From Nitrospiraceae bacterium (lineage in GTDB: Bacteria; Nitrospirota; Nitrospiria; Nitrospirales; Nitrospiraceae), in the NCBI GenBank assembly GCA_013140715.1, contig JABFSG010000060.1, positions 1 to 57,497 on the forward strand: a DNA stretch of 57,497 nt. The letters are read 5' to 3'. Position numbers and translations under genes: made by a program. The first letter of the stretch is position 1, and every line of letters starts with the position of its first letter. Positions 40,956 through 42,814 of this stretch are shown one piece after another. Below the pieces are notes generated by a model. That model was not told the origin of the DNA and did not search any database. It worked only from the letters and a program-made list of their open reading frames with translations.

Positions 40956-41666
40956 ATGCTTGAGCTGAAGAACGTCAATGCCTACTATGGGGAAAGTCAC
41001 ATTCTTCGGAACGTGACGTTCACGGTCGAGCCGGGCGAAGTTGCCTGTTTGATGGGTCGCAATGGTGTGGGCAAGACCACGACATTGAAGGCCATTACCG
41101 GGCTGCTGCCGGTGCGGTCAGGCCAGATATCCTTCGCCGGCAAGGATATGACAACGTTGCCGACCGATCGTCGGGCTCGGCAGGGTTTAGCCTATGTTCC
41201 ACAAGGGCGTGAGATCATTCCCCATTTGACCGTGCGACAAAATCTGCAGCTCGGCTTTTGGGCGAGGTCGGACAGGCCGAATGGTTCGGTGGAGAAGACT
41301 GCGTTCGACGAAGTCTATCAGCTCTTTCCCAAGCTCACGCAAATTCTCAATCGTCCGGGCGGGGTGTTGAGCGGGGGAGAGCAGCAGCAATTGGCGATCG
41401 GCCGTGCGATCCTGTCAAATCCCAAACTACTCTTGCTCGATGAGCCGACGGAAGGGATTCAGCCTTCGATCGTGGACCAGATCGAAGATGTGATTATCGG
41501 ATTCAAACAGCAACGCCGGTTTGCGATTTTGCTGGTCGAGCAAGGACTCCACTTTGCCGCCCGCCTGGCGGAAAAGTATGTGGTGATGGCCAAAGGGGCG
41601 GTGGTGGCGGCGGGCAAGAGCGATGAGTTGAGCGCGGATATGGTGAAGCAGCATTTGACGGTGTAG
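40956..41666 (+). CDS. urtE: Urea ABC transporter ATP-binding protein UrtE
   Basis: A 236-residue LivF-type ATPase with Walker A GRNGVGKTTTLKA, signature LSGGEQQQLAIGRAI, Walker B LLLLDEPTEGIQP and LVEQGLHFA. It is the last transporter gene. Its 3' terminal 75 bases and stop codon are duplicated at 42093-42169, beyond the next small gene. Confidence 0.94.
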   Translation: MLELKNVNAYYGESHILRNVTFTVEPGEVACLMGRNGVGKTTTLKAITGLLPVRSGQISFAGKDMTTLPTDRRARQGLAYVPQGREIIPHLTVRQNLQLGFWARSDRPNGSVEKTAFDEVYQLFPKLTQILNRPGGVLSGGEQQQLAIGRAILSNPKLLLLDEPTEGIQPSIVDQIEDVIIGFKQQRRFAILLVEQGLHFAARLAEKYVVMAKGAVVAAGKSDELSADMVKQHLTV

Positions 41667-41668
41667 CG
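41592..41668 (+). repeat. Direct repeat, left copy (urtE 3' end)
   Basis: These 77 bases, ending just past the urtE stop codon, match 42093-42169 without gaps and with about eight mismatches. The two copies flank the small repeat-protein gene. Confidence 0.85.
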
Positions 41669-41716: not shown

Positions 41717-42067
41717 ATGGTATCTGCTCCCAAAATCATCGGTCTCATGTCTTGTGGGTTTCTGCTGTGTCTTGGTCTGTCTAATACGGCGCAGGCAGAG
41801 AACGCGGCTCCGGCTGTAGAGGGGGAGAAAGCCAGCACGCCTCATGCGAGGCAGCCTGGTGATCCGAGGGTAGGCGGGCAAGGTGGTCAGCCGGCTGCGG
41901 CTCTAAAGGGGGAAGCTGACAAGCCTCATGCGAGGCAGAAGGGTGATCCGAGGGTAGGCGGGCAAGGTGGGCAGCCGGATAAGGGACAGGCTCTAAAGGG
42001 AGAAGCTGGCACACCTCATGCGAGGCAGAAGGGTGGTCCAAGGGTAGGTGGGCAAGGGGGGCAGTAA
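41717..42067 (+). CDS. Small secreted repeat protein between urtE and ureA
   Basis: A 116-residue protein not recognised as any known family. A signal peptide (LMSCGFLLCLGLSNTAQA) precedes three imperfect repeats of 28-30 residues with the core PHARQKGDPRVGGQGGQP and the linker ALKGEA. It is Gly-, Arg- and Gln-rich, with one His per repeat and no Cys in the mature part, and is probably disordered and periplasmic. AAGGAGG lies before the ATG, so it looks expressed. The conserved repeat core argues for function. A structural or metal- or polyanion-binding role is only a guess. Confidence 0.75.
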   Translation: MVSAPKIIGLMSCGFLLCLGLSNTAQAENAAPAVEGEKASTPHARQPGDPRVGGQGGQPAAALKGEADKPHARQKGDPRVGGQGGQPDKGQALKGEAGTPHARQKGGPRVGGQGGQ

Positions 42068-42092: not shown

Positions 42093-42169
42093 AAAGGGGC
42101 AGTGGTGGTGTCGAGCAAGAGCAGTGAGTTGAGCGCGGAAATGGTGAAGAAGCATTTGACGGTGTAGCG
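42093..42169 (+). repeat. Direct repeat, right copy (duplicated urtE tail)
   Basis: A gene fragment able to encode the last 24 residues of UrtE (SELSAEMVKKHLTV then stop), about 90% identical to 41592-41668. It is too short to be a gene and has no start. It is the footprint of a duplication or insertion event. Confidence 0.85.
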
Positions 42170-42170
42170 G

Positions 42171-42269
42171 GCGCGGGACGGCTAGGTGGGTTCCTTGCTC
42201 GCAGAACGCGCACGATCAGAATGTGCTCGTTCGATGCGCGCAGTAGAACCCAACCTAGCCGTCCCGCGC
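42171..42269. repeat. Palindromic element A, between urtE and ureA
   Basis: GCGCGGGACGGCTAGG (from 42171, arm to 42193) pairs with CCTAGCCGTCCCGCGC (arm 42246-42269), a stem of about 23 bp with one bulge. The inner edges are GCTCGCAGAACGCGC (42197-42211) and GATGCGCGCAGTAG (42233-42246), shared with the nested elements downstream. Confidence 0.8.
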
Positions 42270-42319
42270 ATGCCATTTTCCCGCTCCCTTGAGGGAATAG
42301 AAAAAAAGAAATGAGGGAT

Positions 42320-42710
42320 GGAGCCTGATGATCTTCTGTGCTCGCGCAACGCGCGGCCTCAGAAGGATGGGAAAGGGAGCGGCCAGGTGCCCTCTTTGCT
42401 CGCAGAACGCGCAAGATAAAAAGGATTGGAAGGACACCCACGTTGATCCTGTGCTCCCGGAACGCGCGCCCTGAGAAGGGCCTCGTTCGACGGCCGCACG
42501 TAGACCAACATGGGTGCCCTTCCAAGAGAGGGAAAGCAAGCGAGCTTGGAAGGATCATTGATGCGCGCAGTAGAGGGCAGCCTTGGCCACTCCCTTAGAG
42601 GAGCGGTAGCTAGAATCGAAGGGCCCTCGCCTGGACTAATGGCACGTCTCGGCGTGCCAGTGGGCGAGCGGGTGAGAAAGTTGCGCGCAGTTGAAGTCAT
42701 CCTGACCACC
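42320..42710. repeat. Nested palindromic elements B, C and D
   Basis: Element B has arms GGGAGCGGCCAGGTGCCCTC (42375-42394) and 42573-42594. Inside it, element C has arms TTGGAAGGACACCCACGTTG (42426-42445) and CAACATGGGTGCCCTTCCAA (42506-42525). Around B, an older, weaker element D pairs the CTGATGATCTTC region (about 42325) with GAAGTCATCCTGACC (about 42693). Left inner edges GCTCGC(A/G)(G/C)AACGCGC occur at 42340, 42398 and (as GCTCCCGGAACGCGC) 42453. GATGCGCGCAGTAG is at 42560. The 868-base gap from 42068 to 42935 holds no gene. Confidence 0.7.
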
Positions 42711-42814
42711 CGTTACTATTCTGGGCCTCTCTTGAGTCGAGGGAGCAAGGCTGAGTTCTAGCAGGCTGCGGAAAAACTTAGCCGCACGAGACAGGCGGGA
42801 CGGGCAAGACGCAT

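Follow-up and report, generated by a model that had tools for sequence, protein, structure and literature searches.

Palindromes between urtE and ureA

We identified four palindromes (A, B, C, and D; 42171-42711, forward strand) between urtE and ureA in the window, i.e., the whole 57,497-nt stretch of DNA that was analysed. All four had been described in an earlier note on this DNA and are confirmed in the sequence; they are copies of one family of hairpin repeats, with a unit of ~105 nt. A stands alone, and the other three are nested, D enclosing B and B enclosing C. Element A (42171-42269) has 25-nt arms that form an inverted repeat and are 88% complementary (left arm, 42171-42195; right arm, 42245-42269), and between them a 46-nt core (42197-42242, with its left edge at 42197-42211 and its right edge at 42233-42242) that matches the pattern of the family. 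Folded as RNA, A reaches -73.2 kcal/mol, compared to a mean of -38.2 kcal/mol for shuffled sequences (z = -10.4).

The outermost element of the nest, D (42315-42711), is a weak palindrome: its left arm (42315-42339), which arm comparison identified as the commonest D-type arm, is followed by the left core (GCTCGCGCAACGCGC, 42340-42354; a left-edge match), and its right core (GTTGCGCGCA) and weak right arm, together at 42680-42711, were recognised from the sequence and by inverted-repeat search. B lies in the apical loop of D, with GAAGG on the left (42362-42366) and on the right (42618-42622) of the inserted copy as a candidate target duplication; the right half of the D loop (42623-42679) contains an extra hairpin (TGGCACG...CGTGCCA), an extension present in other D-type copies. 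The arms of B (42375-42594) were delimited by arm comparison (left, 42375-42397; right, 42570-42594) and its core halves by pattern matches (left, 42398-42412; right, GATGCGCGCA at 42560-42569). Within the apical loop of B we found C (42426-42525; RNA fold z = -5.3), whose arms, as given by the fold (42426-42452 and 42499-42525), flank a variant core (GCTCCCGGAACGCGC ... GACGGCCGCA, 42453-42498). The 34-nt tail after C (GAGAGGGAAAGCAAGCGAGCTTGGAAGGATCATT, 42526-42559) is common to the tails of D-type and C-type copies elsewhere. Automated parsing of nests was used for such tails and for a few nests checked by hand.

A hairpin repeat family of the Nitrospiraceae

The core follows the pattern GCTCGCnnAACGCGC-N21-GAnGCGCGCA (46 nt), and the inner edges that the earlier note had called conserved are its two halves. 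Across the window's genome (3.58 Mb in 105 contigs) the left edge, allowing at most one mismatch, occurs 129 times, compared to 7 times for the pattern read backwards, and the complete two-edge core occurs 72 times, compared to none for the reversed control; the edges are thus clearly over-represented, but they vary in a linked fashion (see below). Comparison of 159 non-redundant copies gave pairwise identities of 0.92-0.94 for the core halves, 0.37-0.44 for the arms (0.37 at the outer arm ends), and 0.28 for the flanks. The arms, which had been regarded as unrelated, are therefore little conserved between copies, but some shared pattern remains in them and is most evident within the prevalent types. 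The arm types that are most frequent in the genome (GGGAGYGGCCAGGTGCCCTTCTT; GGGATGGAGCCTGATGATCTTCTGT) are those of B and D, and the arms of A recur after urtE in four related genomes (G008, G009, G010, and G019).

The core is present in 31 of the 32 genomes of the genus, with 7 to 104 copies each; the one without strict copies is a 1.8-Mb genome. In a sample of 345 genomes of the phylum, 68 contain the core, all of them from the same family, and none was found in the other families sampled. Almost all named public contigs that contain the core come from Nitrospira (including the complete genome of N. defluvii) or from unclassified Nitrospirota, and the matches in non-Nitrospirota MAGs are single or oddly spaced. 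G029, which has no strict copy, carries diverged relatives at its urtE and purS junctions (L199 and L391, e.g., TTGCTGCTTGCGCACAC...TGTGCTCGCTCAACGCGCGCAGG); the age of the family is therefore greater than a search for strict copies would suggest.

We regard the family as widespread, apparently undescribed mobile hairpin elements, confined to Nitrospiraceae as far as sampled. A search of the open-access literature (Nitrospira combined with palindromic, REP, MITE, or intergenic repeats) found no description of the family, in agreement with the earlier note, although a negative from open-access papers is not proof of novelty. One survey placed N. moscoviensis among the genomes rich in predicted REPs, for palindromes that were by default at most 32 nt long (PMC12306157).

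Position relative to genes

Counting open frames of at least 300 nt, 136 of the 278 copies with enough flanking sequence have the end of a sense ORF no more than 40 nt from their left arm, compared to 33 copies with an antisense ORF at the same distance on the other side (132 sense-only versus 31 antisense-only; p = 5e-16). The sense distances show a sharp peak at 0-10 nt past the stop codon, while the antisense distribution is flat; in a separate count of gene contexts, the median distance to the upstream sense gene was 18 nt.

This sense, post-stop position could alternatively reflect a function in the mRNA. The hairpins would then be functional 3′-UTR RNA elements (protecting mRNA ends, or acting in attenuation or termination) that were conserved for their RNA fold and spread by recombination, and the strong bias, the peak just past stop codons, and the very stable folds as RNA all speak for such a role. 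We nevertheless consider it rather unlikely, for reasons that lie in the mismatches of the arms, the sequence 3′ of the hairpins, and the empty sites described below.

Hairpin structure and co-evolution of the arms

The unit is an imperfect hairpin consisting of a left arm of ~26 nt, the 46-nt core, and a right arm of ~26 nt. Within the core, a T-C mismatch and a GA bulge are conserved, and the inner edges are thus part of the paired stem; two variable core positions covary as base pairs (AG with T, GG with C, GC with G). The paired extent of the arms is near constant, at about 25 of the 26 nt examined. In an alignment of 29 copies, 17 of the 27 pairs change on both sides, and the covariation score of 0.406 (0.193 when shuffled) was reached in 0 of 500 shuffles and was lost when the partner was slid. 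Pairing belongs to the individual copy: own arms fold at a mean of -43.4 kcal/mol, compared to -28.6 kcal/mol with the right arm of another copy and -23.6 kcal/mol for shuffled arms. The difference holds for the 32 copies without a near arm relative (-43.3 kcal/mol for own arms versus -26.0 kcal/mol for swapped ones), and some copies have unique, nearly perfect arms.

Pairs of copies that differ at one to three arm positions show 87 one-sided versus 6 both-sided changes; both-sided changes from one Watson-Crick pair to another then climb steadily with divergence and exceed independence at all divergences, in counts that are not independent since the copies share ancestry. The arms co-evolve stepwise, by a single-base change that is later compensated. 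Over 143 copies, G-T mismatches (254) and A-C mismatches (271) are about equally frequent, and the same is true for the sense copies just after a gene (167 and 169). If the fold of the + strand RNA were selected, G-U should exceed A-C, an expectation based on established knowledge of RNA helices, and the counts show no such excess. The corresponding comparison in tRNAs (three G-U versus no A-C) comprises eight tRNAs and is too small to calibrate this expectation. The equal frequencies speak against the idea that arm pairing is maintained for RNA stability, and hence against 3′-UTR RNA elements. Furthermore, TTTT is found within 20 nt 3′ of the hairpin in only 9 of the 159 copies, so the elements lack the T-run that directly follows intrinsic terminators and are not such terminators; and an Rfam search gave no match above any gathering score, with only chance matches below.

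Equal mismatch counts would be expected if mismatches are handled as DNA, for example if arm complementarity were kept mainly by hairpin-templated repair (quasi-palindrome correction) and not by selection, and the excess of both-sided changes at all divergences is also compatible with such repair. However, the preponderance of one-sided changes among the closest copies indicates that correction is not immediate, and repair leaves the conserved core and the mobility of the family unexplained; it is one component at most, and as the main explanation we find it improbable.

Filled, empty, and nested orthologous sites

Orthologous loci with ~90-94% flank identity were compared in the genomes G026 and G028, with four outcomes. 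Some loci have conserved copies with few arm changes. At others the whole hairpin, including its arms, is present in one genome and absent from the other (L253 vs L220; L231 vs L366; L264 vs L365). At a third group of loci different elements follow right after the same stop codon in the two genomes, and at two of these (L219/L368 and L258/L367) the copy of the other genome persists downstream as a left-half remnant, which looks like the entry of a new copy on the side nearer the gene. Lastly, a B-type copy is present in or absent from the apical loop of a D-type copy (L307/L250 and L278/L315), with GAAGG at the entry point; the Russian-doll nesting proposed in the earlier note is therefore real, as there are orthologous sites with and without the inner copy. 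Of the 30 D loops that are expanded, 23 diverge from the usual sequence at a GAAGG-like point, and AAGGC precedes four of the six orphan right halves that were found. Since many copies share a common descent, these counts of sites and copies are not independent. Whether an empty site reflects a gain in the other genome or a precise loss is a direction that we infer without a species tree.

Short-repeat arrays (AACCAGATAGACCAGATAGAC) lie within the apical loops of some copies (L311 and L007), so the loops seem to accept foreign repeats too.

The purS and urtE junctions

Upstream of purS, eight genomes including the window's have no palindrome: the upstream gene has its stop codon at the purS start or overlapping it (mostly as GTGA). 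Seven genomes have a single hairpin there with the same or nearly the same arms, mostly followed by ~34 nt (in G005 and G011 the right side is interrupted by other sequence); in other genomes the loop of this hairpin contains a further copy, of D type in G003, G019, and G031 and of the same C type as in the window in G018. Nesting thus happens repeatedly. Among the orthologous copies at purS, the core also varies in a paired manner (GG with C, AG with T). That eight genomes do without any copy at purS is a further point against a functional 3′-UTR RNA. In several filled genomes the insert has GTGA at either side, a pattern that selection keeping both stop and start would also favour. Like GAAGG in the D loops, GTGA at purS is a putative target duplication; both are short and inexact and were observed at few sites.

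These sites bear on the origin of the arms. The earlier note had proposed that insertion copies flanking host DNA in inverted orientation, an idea to which the copies with unique, nearly perfect arms lend some appeal. But neither arm is present in the purS empty sites and the arms there are shared across seven genomes, so they are not copies of the host flank; nor was any arm found in the empty site of the L231 versus L366 comparison. The one-sided differences of close copies and the growth of both-sided changes with divergence indicate stepwise co-evolution, not wholesale re-copying, and the residual arm pattern is common across copies. Host-flank copying is contradicted at the sites examined, and we consider it very improbable. 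Another idea is that host palindromes (e.g., terminators) were already in place and received the conserved core in their loops, so that their stems would form the arms; unique arms would fit, and loop insertion is indeed observed for the family's own copies. The empty purS site, however, is an overlapping gene pair with no palindrome, and this together with the near-constant extent of the paired arms speaks against terminator capture, which we reject, and makes capture of host palindromes scarcely credible.

At the urtE junction, the stop codon was located in 19 of the 20 genomes examined, and in all of these except the window's a family member, relative, or remnant lies within ~10 nt past it. 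This near-constant presence is what a functional 3′-UTR RNA would also lead one to expect. Three to four distinct arm lineages occur at the junction; in G019 the A type sits between the urtE stop and the type found in G003, G004, G017, G023, and G031. The element after urtE in G003 (L185) has a left arm like that of G004 and a right arm like that of G023 and probably arose by recombination across the conserved core, a process that may be a further source of arm change.

The end of urtE is duplicated in the window's genome, with A coming after the duplicate: the terminal 44 nt around the stop codon occur twice (41625-41668 and 42126-42169, with 2 differences in 44), on either side of a small ORF (41717-42067) with a signal-peptide-like start and then tandem repeats of ~25-30 residues (PHARQ.GDPRVGGQGGQP). 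G019 and similar relatives have no such ORF, and A follows directly after urtE. The arrangement points to an inserted gene segment that re-creates the 3′ end of urtE.

A second, unrelated intergenic repeat (GGATGCTCAAAAAGGCCGTCCAGCAAGGCCGCAG...CTTTTTCAGCATCCTG) occurs at the same junctions (L366, L384, and other loci upstream of purS), where it sometimes adjoins or replaces the palindromes.

Proposed mobility and candidate mobilisers

Overall, we think that the palindromes are probably copies of a non-autonomous mobile element whose folded core is recognised, with arms that are free in sequence as long as they are complementary. The sequences themselves document the family, its structure, the co-evolution of the arms, the position after genes, the nesting, and the presence or absence of entire units; that the copies transpose, are recognised as DNA, and duplicate their target, and which way the sites changed, is our inference from them. 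An enzyme would recognise the folded core, probably in single-stranded or cruciform DNA, and would move the whole hairpin, perhaps with a duplication of ~4-8 bp at the target. The arms would need complementarity only and could drift one base at a time, with compensation by hairpin-templated repair, by selection that favours foldable copies, or by both, and copies entering the apical loops of other copies would give rise to the nests. A more specific version, which we put forward tentatively as one possibility, is a separate class of mobile elements that act as folded DNA, or inside-out REPINs: an enzyme of the Nitrospiraceae would bind the bulged core, accept any complementary arms, and insert in a fixed orientation. 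Its targets would be the stop-codon ends of genes and the loops of copies already in place, so that nested arrays would grow from the gene-proximal side.

Two known enzymes were considered as mobiliser. Y1_Tnp (PF01797, RAYT) is absent from G025, G026, and G027 (99% complete, with 60-77 copies), so RAYT is not required, and no element lies next to the single PF01797 copy of the window's genome. An integron integrase (IntI) scored above the cut-off in only 2 of the 32 genomes. Given these distributions, we rejected both candidates.

If transposition is correct, it suggests that many intergenic hairpins of Nitrospiraceae genomes are mobile DNA. In this family one hairpin exists in hundreds of natural variants, whose arms are free in sequence and keep only their pairing, and these variants allow a test, from sequence alone, of whether selection on RNA, recognition as DNA, or repair of hairpins maintains palindromes. 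The orthologous empty sites with ~90% flank identity make it a tractable system for finding the mobilising enzyme in environmentally important nitrifiers.

Comparison with known systems

Small bacterial repeats are mostly defined by conserved ends, and the Nitrospiraceae family reverses this layout. The attC sites of integrons are sequence-variable imperfect palindromes with conserved extrahelical bases, which lie after stop codons and act as folded single strands. The family resembles them in its variable imperfect palindromes after stop codons and its conserved irregularities; but attC sites have their conserved boxes at the outer base of the hairpin, whereas the conserved part here is inside, the outer ends are variable (no outer R boxes), and IntI is rare, as noted above. 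IS1397 and similar insertion sequences target the loops of REPs. Loop insertion into a palindromic repeat is seen in the Nitrospiraceae too, where the inserted piece belongs to the same palindrome family.

The MITE-like repeats ERIC, Correia, RUP, and YPAL have conserved terminal inverted repeats, whereas the termini are the most variable part of the Nitrospiraceae element, given the low identity of its arms between copies, and no parental insertion sequence was noticed in the course of the analysis. Presence/absence polymorphism between relatives, a mark of MITEs, was observed. Like these families (reviewed in PMC2229807; ~100-130 nt), the elements are non-coding, palindromic, intergenic, and apparently mobile.

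The closest likeness is to REPs and REPINs, which are moved by TnpA-REP/RAYT and are likewise short, high-copy, mostly intergenic palindromes with a conserved irregularity in the stem. Compensatory changes also occur in REPINs, where part of the hairpin is variable (PMC3116915), and a conserved bulge is required in E. coli REPs (PMC8266576). A REP unit is 20-40 nt long and has a GTAG or CGTC tag at the foot of the hairpin (PMC3733652), whereas the Nitrospiraceae unit has ~105 nt and GTAG occurs only next to the core, in some copies, with outer arm ends that are not conserved; the absence of RAYT from three copy-rich genomes is another difference. In a REPIN the outer ends are conserved and the middle varies, whereas in the Nitrospiraceae family the inner core is conserved and the arms vary. 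By analogy, the family would be a mobile palindromic repeat that is most like a REPIN turned inside out.
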